NCBI RefSeq assembly: GCF_020883455.1
Contig: NZ_CP086615.1
Span: 310,001 to 374,000 of the forward strand
DNA length: 64,000 nt
Direction of reading: 5' to 3'
DNA from: Spiribacter halobius
Lineage (GTDB): Bacteria > Pseudomonadota > Gammaproteobacteria > Nitrococcales > Nitrococcaceae
The first letter of the stretch is position 1, and the number at the start of each line of letters is the position of its first letter. The position numbers and the translations under genes are program-made. Below are positions 45,733-53,151 of this stretch, piece after piece. A model generated the notes under the pieces. It saw only the letters and a list, made by a program, of their open reading frames with translations. It was not told where the DNA came from and did not search any database.

Positions 45733-47499
45733 ATGAGCAGCAAAGACGTCACCGCCGAGTTCACCGATGTCCAGAAGCGCTTTCTGGAAGGCTTTCTCAG
45801 CGGTATCGACACCCTGCGCGCGGGGCAGGGCCTGAGCGGGATCTTCACCCCGGACGAGGCAGACAGCATCGGTGCCGACGGCCACCCCGACGCGCTGCAT
45901 CTGGCAGCGCAGGCGGCCACGGAGAAGGAAGGCCGCAAGCTCGTCAAGGAGGAGCTCGCCAAGCGCGAGGAGCCGGCGCTGGATATCTGGAGGAAGATCC
46001 AGGCCAACGCGGCGAGCCGGACCTTCCCCCAGGGCACGGACGTCTTCCGCTACAAGTTCCACGGGCTGTTCTACACCGCACCGAACCAGGACGCCTACAT
46101 GTGCCGCCTGCGCATGCCGAACGGCATCCTTACGGCGGTGCAGGGCCGGGGCATCGCGGACCTTGCCGACGCCTTCGCCGGCGGCTACGCCCACGTCACC
46201 ACCCGCGCCAATCTGCAGATCCGCGAGATCGGCGCCGGCGATGCGCCCAAGGTGCTCATGGGGCTGCAGGACCTCGGCATCATCAACCGCGGCGCCGGCG
46301 CCGACAACGTGCGCAACATCACCGGCGATCCCCTGGCCGGCGCCGACCCGCAGGCGCTCATCGACACCCGCGAGCTCTGCCGGGAGATGCACTACCACAT
46401 CCTCTGCCACCGCGAGCTCTTCGGCCTGCCGCGCAAGTTCAATATCGCCTTCAACGGCGGCGGCCGCGTGCGCGGCGTCGCCGATACCAACGACATCGAC
46501 TTCACCGCCGTGCGCCGCGGCGACGGCACGGTCTGGTTCCGGGTCGGCATCGGCGGGGTGCCGGGGCATGACGCCTTTGCCGGCGACACCGGCTGGCTGG
46601 TCACCCCCGAGCAGTGCGTGCCGCTGGCGGACGCCATCCTGCGGGTCTACGCGCAGACCGGCTGCCGCAGCGACCGCAAGAAGGCGCGGCTGAAGTACGT
46701 GCTCGAGTCCCTGGGCATGGAGGCCTTCCTGGAGCAGGTCCGGGCCCATCTCGACTTCCAGCCCGCCGGCGACGACGGCGCCTGCGAGGAGGCTCCGCCG
46801 CCGGATCCGATGGCCCACGTCGGCGTGCACGAGACCGCCGAGCCCGGCGTCCATTACATCGGCGTGCCGCTGCCCTTCGGCTACCTCAGCAGCGAGCAGC
46901 TGCGCGGTCTCGCCGCCGTCGCCGAGGAGCACGGCGACGCCCTGCTGCGCCTGACCGTGTGGCAGAACCTGCTGGTCGCCGGCATCCCCGAGGCCGGCCT
47001 AGAGGACGCCACGGCCGCCATCGAGGCCCTGGGCCTGCGCTGCAGCGCGAGCTACGTGCGGGCGGGCACCATTGCCTGCACCGGCAACTTCGGCTGTAAG
47101 CTCGCCAACGCCGACACCAAGACCCATGCCGGCCTGCTGGTGGAGCATCTCGAGCAGCATCTCGAACTCGATCAGCCCCTCAGCATCCACGTCACCGGCT
47201 GCCCCAACTCCTGCGCCCAGCACAAGATCGGCGATATCGGCCTGCTCGGCACCGGCGTCGAGACCGAGGACGAGGAGATGGTGGAGGGCTACGACGTCTT
47301 CGTCGGCGGCGGCTTCGGCGGCCAGCGCGGGCTCGGGGAGCGCCTCTTCGCCAAGGTGATGGCGCCGGACGTCCCGGCGACGGTGGAGCGGGTGCTGCGC
47401 GCCTACCAGGCCCACCGCGATTCCCCCGAGGAGACCTTTCAGGCGTTCGTCGGCCGGCAGGGCGTGGACGGCGTCAAGCGCCTTCTCGCGGCCGCCTGA
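45733..47499 (+). CDS. NirA-like siroheme nitrite (or sulfite) reductase
   Basis: A 588-residue siroheme/[4Fe-4S] reductase of the NirA/CysI superfamily that would reduce nitrite to ammonium (or sulfite to sulfide) with six electrons. Two ferredoxin-like/siroheme half-domain pairs are visible. Cluster ligands are Cys449 and Cys455 (CTGNFGC) plus Cys490 and Cys494 (CPNSC), the last bridging to siroheme. An anion-site Arg cluster is in THVTTRANLQIRE-like AHVTTRANLQIREIG. Nitrite is preferred because the gene sits with a nitrite channel and cyanase under NtrC/sigma-54 elements. Electron supply by the downstream flavoprotein is inferred. Confidence 0.88.
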   Translation: MSSKDVTAEFTDVQKRFLEGFLSGIDTLRAGQGLSGIFTPDEADSIGADGHPDALHLAAQAATEKEGRKLVKEELAKREEPALDIWRKIQANAASRTFPQGTDVFRYKFHGLFYTAPNQDAYMCRLRMPNGILTAVQGRGIADLADAFAGGYAHVTTRANLQIREIGAGDAPKVLMGLQDLGIINRGAGADNVRNITGDPLAGADPQALIDTRELCREMHYHILCHRELFGLPRKFNIAFNGGGRVRGVADTNDIDFTAVRRGDGTVWFRVGIGGVPGHDAFAGDTGWLVTPEQCVPLADAILRVYAQTGCRSDRKKARLKYVLESLGMEAFLEQVRAHLDFQPAGDDGACEEAPPPDPMAHVGVHETAEPGVHYIGVPLPFGYLSSEQLRGLAAVAEEHGDALLRLTVWQNLLVAGIPEAGLEDATAAIEALGLRCSASYVRAGTIACTGNFGCKLANADTKTHAGLLVEHLEQHLELDQPLSIHVTGCPNSCAQHKIGDIGLLGTGVETEDEEMVEGYDVFVGGGFGGQRGLGERLFAKVMAPDVPATVERVLRAYQAHRDSPEETFQAFVGRQGVDGVKRLLAAA

Positions 47500-47525: not shown

Positions 47526-47924
47526 ATGCGTACCCCCCAGCTGCCCGAGAACGCGCCCTTCGACGAGGAGCAGCGTGCCTGGCTGAACGGCTACATCGCC
47601 GCCCTGCTCACGGGCGTCGAGGACGGGGCGCCCGCGGCGGAGGCGCCGGCGCAGAACGGCGAAGCGGCCGCAGAGCCGGCGGACGAGCCCTGGCATGACC
47701 CCACACTGACCCTCGAGCAGCGCATGGCGCTGGCCGAGGGCCGGCCGCTGGCGGACCGGCTGATGGCGGCCACCGCCAACGAGGACTGCGGCGCCTGTGG
47801 CTACGACTGCCGCCGCTATGCCGAGGCCCTCGCCGACGGCACCGAAACGGACACCACCCTCTGCGCCCCCGGCGGCAACGACACCCGCAGGCAGCTCAAG
47901 GCCCTGCTCAAGGGCGAGGCCTGA
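47526..47924 (+). CDS. Stand-alone Fe-S domain protein paired with NirA
   Basis: A 132-residue soluble protein. The last 60 residues carry DCGACGYDC (Cys88, Cys91, Cys95) and a fourth Cys113 in TLCAPGG, a likely [4Fe-4S] site. Around it, WHDPTLTLEQRMALAEG matches the same part of the next gene, WHDMDLPLEERMALVPEG, so the two proteins share an N-terminal module. It could shuttle electrons between flavoprotein and reductase. It looks like a partial tandem duplication; which copy came first is unknown. Confidence 0.8.
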   Translation: MRTPQLPENAPFDEEQRAWLNGYIAALLTGVEDGAPAAEAPAQNGEAAAEPADEPWHDPTLTLEQRMALAEGRPLADRLMAATANEDCGACGYDCRRYAEALADGTETDTTLCAPGGNDTRRQLKALLKGEA

Positions 47925-47982
47925 GCCGGCGCCCGCCAGCAGCGCAGCGGGCGGCCCACGGACACGAGTACCGGAGAGCGGC

Positions 47983-49530
47983 ATGAACGCGAGCGTGATC
48001 CCGCGCAGCGCCCCCTTTTCCGAGCAGCAGCGCCAGTGGCTGGCGGCCATCGTCAGCGAGCGCTTCCTGAACCCCGGCGGGGCCGGGGAGGCCACCACCG
48101 GCGACGACGGCCTGCTCGATGATCTGGACAGCGCCCCCTGGCACGACATGGATCTGCCGCTGGAGGAGCGCATGGCGCTGGTGCCCGAGGGCGGGCCGTT
48201 CCTGTATCGGATCATGGCCGCCATGGCCCAGCAGGACTGCGGCCAGTGCGGCTACGACTGCAAGGGCTACGCCCAGGCCCTGGTGGAGGGCCGCGAGCCG
48301 GAGATGGGGCTCTGCGTCCCCGGCGGACCCACCACCCGCAAGCAGGTCAAGGCCCTGTTCGAGGCCCATGGCCCCGTGGCGGCGGCCGCCGAGGCGGCGC
48401 CGCTCGGGCCGGTCGGCCAGGACCCGCGCAACCCCTGGCATGCGCCGGTCAACTCGGTGTACGCCCTGCACGGCGAGGGCGCGCCCAAGGACACGCGGCA
48501 TGTGGTGATCGACCTGGCGGGCAGCGGCCTGACCTACCGCCCGGGCGACTCACTCGGCGTCTATCCGCAGAACGATCCGGCGCTGGTGGCGAGCGTCATC
48601 GGCGAGCTGGGGGCCGCCGCGGAGACCGAGGTCACCGTGAAGGCCGGCATTGCCCTCAGGCTGGACGAGGCGCTGCGGGACTGGCTGGACATCACCGCAC
48701 CCAGCGACGAGGTGCTCGAGCTGCTGGCGGCCGTGGCGGGTGATGCCGGGGAGGCGCGGGCGCTCGCCGCCCTGGCCGAGGAAGGGCTGGACGACAGCCC
48801 CCTGGACGTCTTCGATGTCCTGCGGCGTCATCCCTCGGCACGGCCGGACGTGCAGGCCTTCGTCGACCGCCTCGGGCGCCTGCGGCCGCGGCTCTACTCC
48901 ATCGCCTCGTCCCAGAGCATGCATCCGGAGGAGGTGCACCTCACCGTCGGCGTGGTCCGTTACGAGGCGGAGGCGCGCCAGCGCAAGGGCGTGGCCTCGA
49001 ATTTCCTCGCCGAGCGCGCCGCCGGCCGCGAGGTCCCGATCTACCTGCAGCCGGCGAAGGACTTCGCTGTGCCGGAGGACGACCGCACGCCCATCATCAT
49101 GGTGGGGCCGGGCACGGGCATCGCCCCCTTCCGGGGTTTCCTGGAGGAGCGCCATGCCCGCGGCGCCAGTGGCGGCGCGTGGCTGTTCTTCGGCAACCCG
49201 CACCGGGAGTCCGACTTCCTCTATCAGGAGGAGCTGGAGGGCTATCTCGAGGCGGGCACCCTGACCCGGCTCGCCACCGCCTTTTCCCGTGACGGCGAGC
49301 GCAAGGTGTACGTGCAGGACCGCATGCGCGAGCACGGTGCCGAGCTCTGGTCCTGGCTGCAGGCCGGGGCCTGCTTCTACGTCTGCGGCGACGCCGAGCA
49401 CATGGCCCCGGCGGTGGATACGGCCCTGCGCGACGTGATCCGGGAGCACGGCGGCGCCGACGAGGAGAGCGCCCGGGACTACCTGCGCAAGCTCGCCCGT
49501 CAGGGCCGCTACCAGCGCGACGTCTACTGA
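47983..49530 (+). CDS. CysJ-like flavoprotein with Fe-S domain replacing flavodoxin
   Basis: A 515-residue predicted NADPH-dependent reductase. The N-terminal ~120 residues hold DCGQCGYDC (Cys86, Cys89, Cys93) and Cys111 in GLCVPGG, a [4Fe-4S]-type module. The rest is the CysJ FAD/NADPH half: YRPGDSLGVYPQND, the FAD motif RLYSIASSQ, VGVVRYEAEARQRKGVASNF in parts, NADPH-site GPGTGIAPFRGFLEER, and the C-terminal RYQRDVY that ends in an aromatic residue as in CysJ. No flavodoxin (FMN) domain is present. It would pass electrons FAD to Fe-S to the NirA-like enzyme. Confidence 0.87.
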   Translation: MNASVIPRSAPFSEQQRQWLAAIVSERFLNPGGAGEATTGDDGLLDDLDSAPWHDMDLPLEERMALVPEGGPFLYRIMAAMAQQDCGQCGYDCKGYAQALVEGREPEMGLCVPGGPTTRKQVKALFEAHGPVAAAAEAAPLGPVGQDPRNPWHAPVNSVYALHGEGAPKDTRHVVIDLAGSGLTYRPGDSLGVYPQNDPALVASVIGELGAAAETEVTVKAGIALRLDEALRDWLDITAPSDEVLELLAAVAGDAGEARALAALAEEGLDDSPLDVFDVLRRHPSARPDVQAFVDRLGRLRPRLYSIASSQSMHPEEVHLTVGVVRYEAEARQRKGVASNFLAERAAGREVPIYLQPAKDFAVPEDDRTPIIMVGPGTGIAPFRGFLEERHARGASGGAWLFFGNPHRESDFLYQEELEGYLEAGTLTRLATAFSRDGERKVYVQDRMREHGAELWSWLQAGACFYVCGDAEHMAPAVDTALRDVIREHGGADEESARDYLRKLARQGRYQRDVY

Positions 49531-49793: not shown

Positions 49794-50240
49794 ATGACGA
49801 AGGACGAGATGCGTGCAGCGATTCTCGAGGCCAAGGCGGAGAAGCAGATGACCTGGGAGCAGATCGCCCGGGAGGTCGGCTGCTCTCCCGTGTTCGTGAC
49901 GTCCGCCTGCCTCGGCGAGAACAGCATGACCGACGAGCAGGCCGGAAAGCTGACCGGCACGCTCGGGCTCGGCAAGGAGGTCGCGCAGGCGCTGATGCGC
50001 TGCCCGGTGCGGGCGCGCCAGGGCGAGGCGCTGATGACCGATCCCGTGATCTACCGGGCCTTCAAGGAGGTGGGCATGGTCTACGGCGAGACCTTCAAGG
50101 AGCTCGTCCACGAGAAGTTCGGCGACGGGATCATGAGCGCCATCGACTTCACCATGGACGTGGAGAAGGTGGAGGACCCCAAGGGGGACCGCGTGAAGAT
50201 CGTCATGAACGGGAAGTTCCTGCCCTACAAGCGCTGGTAG
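49794..50240 (+). CDS. cynS: Cyanate hydratase (cyanase)
   Basis: A 148-residue cyanase that converts cyanate and bicarbonate to ammonia and CO2. The N-terminal helical domain (MTWEQIAREVGCSPVFVTSA) and the C-terminal catalytic domain (HEKFGDGIMSAIDF, which includes the active-site Ser) are clear. The active-site Arg and Glu are in YRAFKEVGMVYG; compared with the usual YRFYE spacing there appears to be one extra residue between them. The gene supplies ammonium from cyanate beside the nitrite system. Confidence 0.94.
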   Translation: MTKDEMRAAILEAKAEKQMTWEQIAREVGCSPVFVTSACLGENSMTDEQAGKLTGTLGLGKEVAQALMRCPVRARQGEALMTDPVIYRAFKEVGMVYGETFKELVHEKFGDGIMSAIDFTMDVEKVEDPKGDRVKIVMNGKFLPYKRW

Positions 50241-50259
50241 GCCGCCGGCCACCGGCGGC
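50241..50259 (+). terminator. Hairpin directly after the cynS stop codon
   Basis: GCCGCCGG (50241-50248) and CCGGCGGC (50252-50259) form a perfect 8-bp stem with a CCA loop, starting at the base after the stop codon. With no U-tract it may only partly limit read-through into the channel gene 51 bp on. Confidence 0.4.
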
Positions 50260-50309
50260 TCGGCGTACAACGCCGCCCCCTTGCAGACACACCAGAGGAA
50301 TCCGAATCC

Positions 50310-51125
50310 ATGTCCTACCTACAACCCACGGAATTCGTCACCAAGCTCGTCGATCAGGGCGAGGCCAAGGTCTACATGAGCGAGCGGGATACCGTGCTGC
50401 GGGCCTTCATGGCCGGCGCCACCCTCGCCCTCGCCGTGATCTTCGCCGTCACCATCGCCGTGAACACCGGCAACTTCCTGATCGGCGCACTGCTCTTCCC
50501 GGTCGGCTTTTCCATGCTCTATCTCATGGGCTACGACCTGCTGACCGGCGTGTTCACCCTGGTGCCGCTGGCGTGGCTCGACCGGCGTCCGGGCGTCACC
50601 TTCGGGCGCATGCTCAAGTGCTGGGCGCTGGTGGGCCTCGGCAACCTGATGGGAGCCCTGTTCATCGCCGTCTTCGGCTGGCTCAACTTCACCCAGGGCT
50701 GGTCCCAGGAGGTGAACGAGGTCGGCCAGGCGATCATGGCCACCGGCGAGAGCCGCACCGTCGGCTACCGCGAGGCCGGCCTCGGCGGCTGGATCATCCT
50801 CTTCCTGCGCGGCATGTTCTGTAACTGGATGGTGTCCATGGGCGTGGTCGGCGCCGCCATCTCCACCACCGTGCCCGGCAAGATACTCGGCATGTGGATG
50901 CCGATCATCGTGTTCTTCTACCTCGGCTTCGAGCACTCGGTGGTGAACATGTTCCTGTTCCCGATCGGACTCATGATGGGGGCGCCGTTCACCCTCTACG
51001 ATTACATCTTCTGGAACGAGATCCCGACGGTGCTCGGCAACCTGGTGGGCGGCCTCACCCTGGTGGGTCTCGCGCTCTACACCACCCACGTGCGCACCGG
51101 CGCGAAGAAGCAGTTCGCCGTCTGA
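50310..51125 (+). CDS. Formate/nitrite transporter family channel
   Basis: A 271-residue FNT-family protein with six membrane helices. The central His of the pore is in YLGFEHSVVNMF, followed by the family signature NMFLFPIGLMMGAPF. The first half has the matching FLIGALLFPVGFSMLYLMGYDLLTG region in parts. Members pass formate, nitrite or other small anions; nitrite import is favoured because of the NirA-like enzyme next door. AGAGGAA precedes the ATG. It is probably expressed from the cynS sigma-54 promoter. Confidence 0.93.
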   Translation: MSYLQPTEFVTKLVDQGEAKVYMSERDTVLRAFMAGATLALAVIFAVTIAVNTGNFLIGALLFPVGFSMLYLMGYDLLTGVFTLVPLAWLDRRPGVTFGRMLKCWALVGLGNLMGALFIAVFGWLNFTQGWSQEVNEVGQAIMATGESRTVGYREAGLGGWIILFLRGMFCNWMVSMGVVGAAISTTVPGKILGMWMPIIVFFYLGFEHSVVNMFLFPIGLMMGAPFTLYDYIFWNEIPTVLGNLVGGLTLVGLALYTTHVRTGAKKQFAV

Positions 51126-51426
51126 GGCTTCCACCGTCGCGGAGCTGACGGAAGCGGCTGGTGCCGGGGCCTCCCTGGCGCCAGCCTTCCTGGTTCCTGA
51201 CCAAGTATCTGCCTCAGCCCGCGTTACCCCACGGCACCCGCGGCACGGGCTTGAATCCGCTCGCAGCACCGCGGATGCGTGCCCGACAAGTACGGCCGAG
51301 CAAGATGCGTAATCAGGTTGTGGTTAAGGCGCTACTGGCGTGGGTGGCTGCCTCCGCGAGGATCTCGGCGCCAAGGATTGGGTCCTTTCAGCGACCGCAC
51401 CCGAGGCCAGAACCCGGGAGAAGGCC
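51126..51426. other. 301-bp gap before the PP2C-kinase gene
   Basis: No gene, long palindrome or sigma-54 element was found here. A TTGTGG near 51318 could be a weak -35. It presumably carries the promoter of the downstream fusion gene unless that is read through from the channel gene. Confidence 0.4.
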
Positions 51427-53151
51427 TTGACCGGCAAGCTCAGCGTATCCATCGGCCAGCACTCCGAGGCCGGCGCCAAGCCCCGCAATCAGGATGCCTG
51501 CGGCGCGCGCGTCCCCGCCGGCGCGGAGCTCGCCTCCAAGGGGGTTGCCGTCGCCCTGGCGGACGGCATCAGCACCAGCGAGGTGGCCCATATCGCCAGC
51601 GAGACGGCGGTCACGGGCTTCCTTGCCGACTACTACTGCACCTCCAACGCCTGGTCCGTGAAGCGCTCCGGCCAGCGCGTCATCGACGCGATCAATGCCT
51701 GGTTGCATGGCCACACGGACCGCAGCTGGGCGCGCTACGACAAGGACCGCGGCTACGTCTGCACCTTCACCGCGCTCGTCATCAAGGGTCGCACCGGGCA
51801 TCTGTTCCATGTCGGCGATTCCCGGGCCTGGCGCGTTCAGGGCGGTTCGCTCGAACAGCTCACGGACGATCACCGCCATCACGCCGGCGGGCGCAGCTTC
51901 CTGGGGCGTGCGCTCGGCACGGCGCATTCCGTGGAGATCGACTACCGGGCGTTCCCGCTCGCGCCGGGTGACACCTTCGTGCTGACCACCGACGGCGTCC
52001 ACGAGCATCTGCCGCCGCAGGCCATCGCCGCCGCCATCCGTGAGGGTTCCGATGATCTGGAGGCAGCGGCCAGGGCGCTGGTCGCTGCCGCCCACGGGCG
52101 CGGCAGCGAGGACAATCTCACCGCCGCCATCCTGCGCGTGGACCGGCTCCCCGAGCCGGCGCTGAGCGAGTTTCAGCAGCGGGTCACCGAGCTGCCGTTT
52201 CCGCCGGCGCTTGGCCCGCGCAGCCTCATTGACGGCTACGAGATCGTGCGCGAGCTGCACGTCAGCAGCCGCAGCCACGTGTTCCTCGCCCTGGACAGCG
52301 AGTCGGGCACGCCGGTGGCGCTCAAGGTCCCGGCCACGGAACTGCGCGACGATCCGGCGGCGCTCGAGCGCTTCCTGGCCGAGGAGTGGATCGCCCGCCG
52401 GGTGGACAGCGCCCACCTCCTCAAGCCGCGGCCGAGGGAGCGCGCCCAGAACTACCTGTACGTGGTCACCGAATACGTGGACGGGCAGACCCTGACCCAG
52501 TGGATACGGGACCACCCCCGCGCCGACTTCGCGCGGGTGCGGGATCTGGTCACGCAAATCGGCAAGGGTCTGCGCGCCCTCCACCGGCAGGACATGATCC
52601 ACCAGGACCTGCGTCCGTATAACGTCATGATCGACGCCACCGGAACGGCCAAACTGATCGATTTCGGCGCCGTGCGCGTGGCCGGCCTCGGCGAGGGTGT
52701 GGATGAAGCGGTGGGTCCCGTCCTCGGCACGGAGCAGTACGCCGCGCCGGAATACTTCCTCGGGGCGGGCGGATCGGAGCGCTCGGACGTCTTCTCGCTG
52801 GCGGTGATCACCTACCAGATGCTGACCGGGCAGCTGCCCTACGGCCCGAAGGTGGCCCAGGTGCGCAGCCGGAGCGGGCTCAATCGCCTGAAGTACACGT
52901 CAGTGCTCACCTACAACCGCGCCTGCCCGCCCTGGATCGACGGCGCCCTGCGCAAGGCGCTGCATCCTCGTCCCGAGCGGCGCTACGCCGAGGTCTCGGA
53001 GTTCCTCCACGACCTCCACCACCCGCGCCCGGAATTCGTCCACGCCACCCGCCCGCCGCTCATCGAGCGCAATCCCGAGGCCTTCTGGAAGGGCGTTTCC
53101 CTGCTGATCGGCTTGATCGCGCTGGCCGAGCTGCTCTGGCTCGTTCGCTGA
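51427..53151 (+). CDS. Bifunctional PP2C phosphatase / Ser-Thr kinase, membrane-anchored
   Basis: A 574-residue fusion. The N-terminal PP2C domain has RNQDACG, VALADGIS, HVGDSRAW, LTTDGVHEHL and SEDNLTAA, so the metal-binding Asps are present. The kinase domain (from about residue 270) has VALKVPA (Lys), IHQDLRPYNVMI (HQD in place of HRD), LIDFGAV and AAPEYF. One C-terminal helix (SLLIGLIALAELLWLV) anchors it. The start is TTG at 51427 with GGGAGAAGG upstream. Similar fusions occur beside nitrate/nitrite transport genes in other proteobacteria, suggesting control of nitrogen uptake. Confidence 0.9.
   Translation: MTGKLSVSIGQHSEAGAKPRNQDACGARVPAGAELASKGVAVALADGISTSEVAHIASETAVTGFLADYYCTSNAWSVKRSGQRVIDAINAWLHGHTDRSWARYDKDRGYVCTFTALVIKGRTGHLFHVGDSRAWRVQGGSLEQLTDDHRHHAGGRSFLGRALGTAHSVEIDYRAFPLAPGDTFVLTTDGVHEHLPPQAIAAAIREGSDDLEAAARALVAAAHGRGSEDNLTAAILRVDRLPEPALSEFQQRVTELPFPPALGPRSLIDGYEIVRELHVSSRSHVFLALDSESGTPVALKVPATELRDDPAALERFLAEEWIARRVDSAHLLKPRPRERAQNYLYVVTEYVDGQTLTQWIRDHPRADFARVRDLVTQIGKGLRALHRQDMIHQDLRPYNVMIDATGTAKLIDFGAVRVAGLGEGVDEAVGPVLGTEQYAAPEYFLGAGGSERSDVFSLAVITYQMLTGQLPYGPKVAQVRSRSGLNRLKYTSVLTYNRACPPWIDGALRKALHPRPERRYAEVSEFLHDLHHPRPEFVHATRPPLIERNPEAFWKGVSLLIGLIALAELLWLVR

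Follow-up and report, generated by a model that had tools for sequence, protein, structure and literature searches.

The genome of Spiribacter halobius (G000; 4.17 Mb, one contig) carries, within the window analyzed here (the whole 64,000-nucleotide stretch G000:C1:310001-374000), consecutive genes for a NirA-family siroheme protein (P0003), a free iron-sulfur (Fe-S) module (P0001) and a reductase (P0002) in which such a module is fused to domains for flavin adenine dinucleotide (FAD) and NADPH. The comparative evidence suggests, with a probability that we put at roughly 0.78, that the NirA-family protein and the fused reductase together make up a dedicated assimilatory nitrite reductase that consists of two proteins and draws on NADPH. 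The reductase is very likely the electron supplier of NirA, since it is found beside the nirA gene in every genome checked, and the term sulfite in its family name is most likely a misnomer. The fused architecture itself is already known; what is new is the evidence on its function.

The domain content of P0002 bears out the initial annotation, which had described a CysJ-like protein ending in RYQRDVY and carrying a four-cysteine module in place of the flavin mononucleotide (FMN) domain. A Pfam search places FAD_binding_1 (PF00667) at residues 147-341, NAD_binding_1 (PF00175) at 373-478 and an Fe-S domain (PF04060) at 85-112, the latter with 25.3 bits against a gathering cut-off of 23. The same search gives no match to flavodoxin (PF00258) in P0002, so that the FMN domain expected of the CysJ family TIGR01931 is missing; that profile reaches 416.9 bits, below its cut-off of 668, and aligns over positions 232-597 only. 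A sulfite reductase flavoprotein structure (6efv) matches residues 126-515 with an E of 3.9e-95 and Foldseek superposes the fused model on 1ddg_A with a root-mean-square deviation of 2.7, but the fold matches of this model speak for the FAD/NADPH half only, because its N-terminal part is of low confidence. NF004859 (PRK06214), on the other hand, covers P0002 end to end (595.9 bits, cut-off 432, profile positions 10-539 of 539), and the replacement of flavodoxin by an Fe-S module is hence already catalogued, under a sulfite name. Relatives in this family occur in Alpha- and Gammaproteobacteria, Planctomycetota and Myxococcota. The earlier suggestion of a pathway unlike known ones is supported with respect to flavodoxin-type CysJI and finds no support with respect to uniqueness, the family being both catalogued and widespread.

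The cysteine spacing C-x2-C-x3-C-x17-C-x-P-G-G is common to P0001 and P0002. An alignment of 41 reductase rows, seven of which were truncated by the end of their locus and excluded, retained 34 full-length fused sequences (that of the window included), and the four cysteines are intact in all 34, as well as in both free copies and in three further fused sequences inspected separately (L068, L069 and L143). The x17 spacing and the PGG are looser than the cysteines, since L033-L036 are one residue shorter and read PGA, and L067-L069 read PGS. A structure search with the module profile found RnfB alone (8ahx_B, E 6.7e-5; 7zc6_B, E 0.064), and the module is predicted to bind a [4Fe-4S] cluster. 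Membership in the RnfB family (TIGR01944) was rejected, P0001 and P0002 scoring 42.6 and 34.1 bits against a cut-off of 68.7.

The association of the reductase with NirA was followed through three overlapping samples of 369 (class), 54 (order) and 398 (phylum) genomes, G000 being present in all three. NF004859 matches were taken as full length when starting at profile positions 1-11 and ending at 539; those starting beyond 110 and ending at about 539 correspond to flavodoxin-type CysJ or other reductases, whereas RnfB-like proteins account for the short ones at about 84-143. Since the class and phylum searches scored no more than three candidates per genome, they could have overlooked weaker second copies located elsewhere. 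Full-length reductases were found in 6 of the 369 class genomes, all among the 8 with a NirA over cut-off, and in exactly the genomes with NirA in the order (5/54) and phylum (22/398) samples, making 31 reductase and 33 NirA genomes in the union. For the phylum sample, co-occurrence has a hypergeometric p of 1.3e-36, which is to be taken as a guide only, because the genomes are not independent. In all 31 genomes the reductase lies downstream of an NF007126 NirA and in the same orientation, the profile matches being -1 to 492 bp apart. The initial annotation had proposed searching for the module together with NirA and without flavodoxin: the first half of this expectation is borne out in 31/31 genomes, while flavodoxin is absent from P0002 yet present in G000, where PF00258 matches at three places, one of them within a 625-codon CysJ frame.

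Beyond these samples, 22 loci encode a relative of the free module. Seven of them (L004-L009 and L025, from an Ectothiorhodospiraceae metagenome-assembled genome (L004), five Planctomycetota and one Polyangiaceae) hold a fused reductase that is immediately preceded by NirA, except that the free module intervenes in L004; L004 and G399 are counted once, since they are the same contig (13,154 bases, equal scores). Among the other 15, fourteen (L010-L022 and L024) have no more than a frame of 269-288 codons, and in L023 the frame ends at the contig end. In the two NirA genomes devoid of the Fe-S reductase, a flavoprotein of other make seems to substitute for it. In G295 (L188:6262-8073) NirA adjoins a 604-codon flavodoxin-type CysJ (PF00258, 79.1 bits). 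In G314 (L189:5825-10030) NirA ends a 1402-codon frame, possibly more than one gene, that also contains cNMP_binding and FAD_binding_6 domains and, below threshold, a BFD [2Fe-2S] match; it is possibly a self-contained nitrite reductase.

Gene surroundings were compared in 20 regions cut from the 33 NirA genomes, 18 of these regions with the Fe-S reductase, by phmmer (E up to 1e-12) against the window's own proteins and those of a Methylocystis MJC1 plasmid locus. NasA- and/or NasTS-like genes occur in 11 of the 18 reductase regions (L179-L183, L190, L191, L193-L195 and L198), and a formate/nitrite transporter (FNT)-like gene in six of the other seven (L184-L187, L192 and L196). The MJC1 locus (NZ_CP107559.1) is labelled as encoding an ANTAR protein, NrtA-type proteins, a nitrate ABC transporter, an FAD oxidoreductase, a NirA-family protein, a 'sulfite reductase subunit alpha' and a nitrate reductase, and the same gene set was found by similarity in the unannotated record of Methylobacterium bullatum. 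The five genomes of the window's family with the pair (the window's own, G399, G405, G408 and G417) share the order NirA-reductase-cyanase-FNT-PP2C kinase, with the free module after NirA in two of them. In the distant loci, a weaker NasA-like match (319-371 bits) lies near NirA in L005-L008 and L025, and L009 has a Flp-like match only. As for the two regions without the Fe-S reductase, that of G314 has a NasA-like gene and that of G295 none of NasA, NasTS or FNT.

The assignment of P0003 to the NirA family rests on NF007126, which scores 775.2 bits against a cut-off of 523; CysI (TIGR02041, 121.7 bits) and ferredoxin-nitrite reductase (NF007125, 340.5 bits) stay below their cut-offs of 756 and 594. 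The CobG profile TIGR02435 also exceeds its cut-off (356 versus 234.8 bits). A CobG identity was rejected, as NF007126 scores 419 bits higher and the neighbours in relatives are nitrogen genes; no search for B12 genes was made. With methyl viologen as donor, the P. aeruginosa NirA PA4130, which lies in a predicted operon with PA4129, reduces nitrite but very little sulfite (PMC8092218; see also PMC12688703), and Bradyrhizobium depends on nirA (bll4571) to grow on nitrate or nitrite (PMC4724949). By analogy with these proteins, P0003 is predicted to reduce nitrite to ammonium.

The database name of NF004859 and the closeness of its FAD/NADPH half to CysJ would favor a different substrate, the pair then being an assimilatory sulfite reductase, that is, a CysJI variant with an Fe-S module. 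No CysI-type or flavodoxin-CysJ-type match was found in G405, G408 and G417, and because of this the pair could also serve sulfite in those three genomes. In G000, however, a flavodoxin-type CysJ adjoins CysI (about 2.73 Mb). Apart from P0003 and CysI, a search at E 0.001 brought up no NIR_SIR gene in that genome, nor was a NirB seen. Given this separate CysJI and the nitrogen context, together with the 31/31 adjacency to an over-cut-off NirA and the substrate preference of the P. aeruginosa enzyme, we consider the sulfite reading quite improbable.

A second alternative keeps nitrite as the substrate and has ordinary ferredoxin driving NirA, the Fe-S reductase merely recycling ferredoxin or serving a nitrate reductase. 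Related NirA enzymes are indeed called ferredoxin-dependent (PMC8092218; putatively so for Bradyrhizobium in PMC4724949), and NasA-like genes are often nearby. Against a nitrate reductase partner, the regions of G399, G405, G408 and G417 contain no NasA-like gene, and G446 and G735 display the order NasT-NasS-NirA-reductase with no NasA-like gene within 18 kb. Moreover, for NasC of B. japonicum a separate flavoprotein, Flp, has been proposed, and not for NirA (PMC4724949). We therefore regard this alternative as unlikely, and return to the reductase as the donor of NirA. Expression of bll4570 ('probable sulfite reductase (NADPH) flavoprotein') and of nirA bll4571 increases in parallel in Bradyrhizobium diazoefficiens, both in nifH (log2 4.8 and 5.0) and in nifA nodules (log2 1.6 and 2.2; PMC4926349), and nirA is among the genes down in a nasT mutant (PMC6759348). 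Judging by the gene order of G446 and G735, bll4570 is presumably a member of NF004859; it does not appear in the main text of PMC4724949.

A NasA was also sought in G000, and the outcome likewise counts against a nitrate reductase partner. The two best matches to the MJC1 NasA query (32% identity) proved to be formate dehydrogenases, with TIGR01591 over cut-off; NasC NF047855 gives them 499 bits against a cut-off of 1100, and weaker NasA matches were left untyped. Near-identical formate dehydrogenase alpha copies (TIGR01591 over cut-off) with the same upstream gene lie at L175 and L176 (G000:C1, about 3265753 and 1890969).

That no CysI-type or flavodoxin-CysJ-type match was found in three relatives is one of several points that weigh against a dedicated NADPH-dependent nitrite reductase, as is the CobG score of P0003. 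Adjacency is not proof of electron transfer, and 7 of the 18 reductase regions lack a NasA- or NasTS-like gene, one of them (L197, a short contig) lacking FNT too. Recombinant PA4130 accepts methyl viologen or reduced spinach ferredoxin, and NADPH with free flavin minimally, a cognate reductase not being among the donors tried in that study (PMC8092218). Literature searches, some of them judged on part of their results, yielded no recognizable biochemistry of a NirA/Fe-S reductase pair. At the structural level, AlphaFold models residues 84-113 of the fused module with a confidence under 50, and a fold search with the free module returned seven matches, none with E < 0.001.

The electron path NADPH-FAD-[Fe-S]-siroheme put forward initially is nonetheless supported comparatively, by the 31/31 adjacency and the nitrate/nitrite gene context. 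NADPH, presumably the preferred donor, would reduce FAD in the CysJ-type C-terminal half; FAD would hand single electrons to the N-terminal PF04060-type cluster, which replaces the FMN of CysJ, and the cluster would in turn feed the [4Fe-4S]-siroheme center of NirA directly, six electrons being needed per nitrite. If this is true, widespread bacteria (Methylocystis, Methylobacterium and Planctomycetota, and Bradyrhizobium by gene order) reduce nitrite through a dedicated NADPH-Fe-S flavoprotein, many sulfite reductase annotations stand to be corrected, and NirA gains an electron donor where ferredoxin had been assumed. The system would also represent a natural Fe-S-for-FMN domain swap, one genome having a flavodoxin-type substitute, and could serve to probe the requirements on an electron-transfer domain that feeds siroheme.

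The gene preceding the reductase encodes, as first described, the same module on its own with similar flanks. PF04060 is the sole Pfam family in P0001 (residues 87-113, 25.1 bits, gathering cut-off 23), NF004859 matches it over profile positions 11-142 with 162.6 bits, and its identity to P0002 is 44% over 130 residues, flanks included (E 1e-33). AlphaFold gives the free protein five helices and a mean confidence (pLDDT) of 77.1. Matches of this type, confined to the N-terminal part of NF004859 and of about 160 bits, occur in 2 of the 31 genomes (G000 and G399) among the up to three candidates per genome of the class and phylum scans, and in both genomes the module sits in the gap from NirA to the reductase. 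Across the loci and regions compared, the frames flanking the pair showed no additional free copy, although copies elsewhere in the class and phylum genomes could escape this search. Since only 2 of the 31 genomes have it, the pair does not need the free module in general. In L180 and L182 (G171 and G279) the NirA frames are of about 650 codons, as against 588 residues in the window, and no free module was found in the gap that separates them from the reductase.

The free copy is genuine, is conserved across two genera of a single family and is a duplicate of the reductase N-terminal domain, seen in this lineage only. The tree places the two free copies as sister to the fused modules found in the same family, with a support of 93/89 that is not decisive (not starred, long branches flagged); a topology that keeps the free modules together with these fused ones passes the test (p-AU 0.138), so that the tree does not date the duplication. 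Leaving aside the other free copy, P0001 scores best in pairwise comparison with a Planctomycetota sequence and with one from a different class of the phylum that G000 belongs to. Acquisition from another phylum was rejected, as the tree does not place P0001 there.

The copy is under purifying selection. By a simple counting method applied to G000 and G399/L004, nonsynonymous and synonymous divergence (dN/dS) amount to 0.17/0.79 for the free module, 0.15/1.27 for the fused module, 0.18/1.29 for the FAD/NADPH half and 0.14/1.02 for NirA. The resulting ratio of about 0.21 exceeds those of the fused module (0.12) and NirA (0.14), and this, together with the restriction to two genomes and the change of two near-invariant pre-cluster residues in both free copies (M83 to T and Q85 to N), could be read as the sign of a decaying or non-functional leftover of duplication. 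We hold that reading to be doubtful, for the ratio is far below 1 and all four cysteines are retained. Across 40 columns at least 85% conserved in 32 other fused sequences, both free copies keep 10/10 N-terminal, 5/6 middle and 19/24 cluster-half columns, and their fused twins 7/10, 5/6 and 21/24. The glycine of WLxG, present in 32/32 other fused sequences and in both free copies, is gone from both fused twins. From the sequences, the free and fused copies look like a division of labor, but this is a single event in a single lineage.

As RnfB and other electron carriers also contain PF04060 modules, the free module might instead serve an unrelated acceptor or have a regulatory role; this appears unlikely for a gene that is flanked by NirA and the reductase wherever it was seen, in G000 and G399. 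Its most likely role is in the same pair, since it keeps the cluster cysteines and an N-terminal motif that the fused copy has partly lost. We advance this tentatively, at somewhat less than even odds, the free module acting as an extra one-electron carrier or as a piece docking the reductase to NirA.

The motif in question, F/L-x3-Q-x-x-aromatic-L-x-G, recurs near the start of NirA, of the Fe-S reductases, of the free module and of many CysJ proteins. It is found in 31 of 34 fused, 2/2 free and 33 of 36 NirA rows, and a slightly looser pattern in 27 of 37 CysJ rows versus 7 of 2140 shuffles; the pattern was picked after viewing the sequences, some NirA rows are truncated by their locus or have a guessed start, and several CysJ rows are near relatives. 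Profile-profile comparison of the N-termini gives probabilities of 93% for NirA and reductase, 96% for reductase and CysJ and 66% for NirA and CysJ. The CysJ N-terminus of E. coli is known for its part in octamer formation, and the segment may be a docking, oligomerization or assembly piece, as a lead and not a result. Taken together, one might conjecture a third wiring from NADPH to siroheme, beside CysJI and ferredoxin-NirA, with PF04060 in place of flavodoxin and with the duplicated free module having, in this lineage, assumed part of the work as a removable one-electron carrier and docking piece joining reductase and NirA through their similar N-terminal motif; as a whole, this scheme is speculative and rather unlikely.

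Coordinates of the nitrite reductase genes and their conserved neighbours are listed below. Both in the window and in the four related genomes with the pair, the cyanase, FNT and PP2C-kinase genes (49794-53151) lie 3' of the nitrite reductase genes, possibly as part of a nitrogen operon for nitrite and cyanate that includes a Ser/Thr regulator of its own.

Table 1. Features of the probable nitrite reductase locus (window positions).
Feature	Position	Strand	Evidence and remarks
NirA-family siroheme/[4Fe-4S] nitrite reductase (P0003), 588 aa	45733..47499	+	NF007126, PF01077 x2, PF03460 x2
NirA N-terminal motif FTDVQKRFLEGFLSGID	45760..45810	+	position set by eye; resembles start of reductase family and free module
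Free Fe-S module (P0001), 132 aa; Cys88, 91, 95, 113	47526..47924	+	PF04060; N-terminal part of NF004859
Fe-S/FAD/NADPH reductase (P0002), 515 aa	47983..49530	+	NF004859, 'sulfite reductase subunit alpha'
Four-Cys Fe-S motif of fused reductase; Cys86, 89, 93, 111	48238..48315	+	Cys pattern, alignment
CysJ-type FAD and NADPH domains, C-terminal RYQRDVY	48418..49530	+	PF00667, PF00175; 6efv; Foldseek 1ddg_A
Cyanase CynS	49794..50240	+	PF02560, NF002773; next gene also in four related genomes with the pair
Formate/nitrite (FNT) transporter	50310..51125	+	PF01226, 206 bits
PP2C phosphatase-protein kinase fusion, conserved neighbour	51424..53151	+	PF13672 and PF00069

Among known systems, the ferredoxin-dependent NirA enzymes (NF007125; P. 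aeruginosa PA4130, which prefers nitrite over sulfite, PMC8092218) are siroheme nitrite reductases, as P0003 is predicted to be, but P0003 misses the NF007125 cut-off and has a dedicated NADPH reductase encoded next to it. With NF004859, P0002 shares its architecture and FAD/NADPH half over the full length, whereas the free module fits only the first quarter of the profile; the family name says sulfite and the comparative evidence gathered here points to nitrite. The PF04060 domain of RnfB (8ahx, 7zc6) is alike in its cysteine pattern and PGG, and differs in that the modules studied here have, in alignments, one residue fewer between the second and third cysteines, besides not reaching the RnfB family cut-off. 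Relays combining FAD and Fe-S centers are known in principle from NirB and BoxA, where an NAD(P)H-FAD-Fe-S chain likewise runs in or beside the catalytic enzyme, although the Fe-S domains differ; the BoxA profile matches P0002 only at 303-506, in the FAD/NADP half (84.1 bits). CysJ (TIGR01931) and CysI have in common with the pair the FAD and NADPH domains, the C-terminus, an N-terminal motif of the F/L-x3-Q-x-x-W-L-x-G type and a siroheme partner, whereas P0002 carries a PF04060 module where CysJ has flavodoxin with its FMN, and its neighbour is NirA and not CysI.

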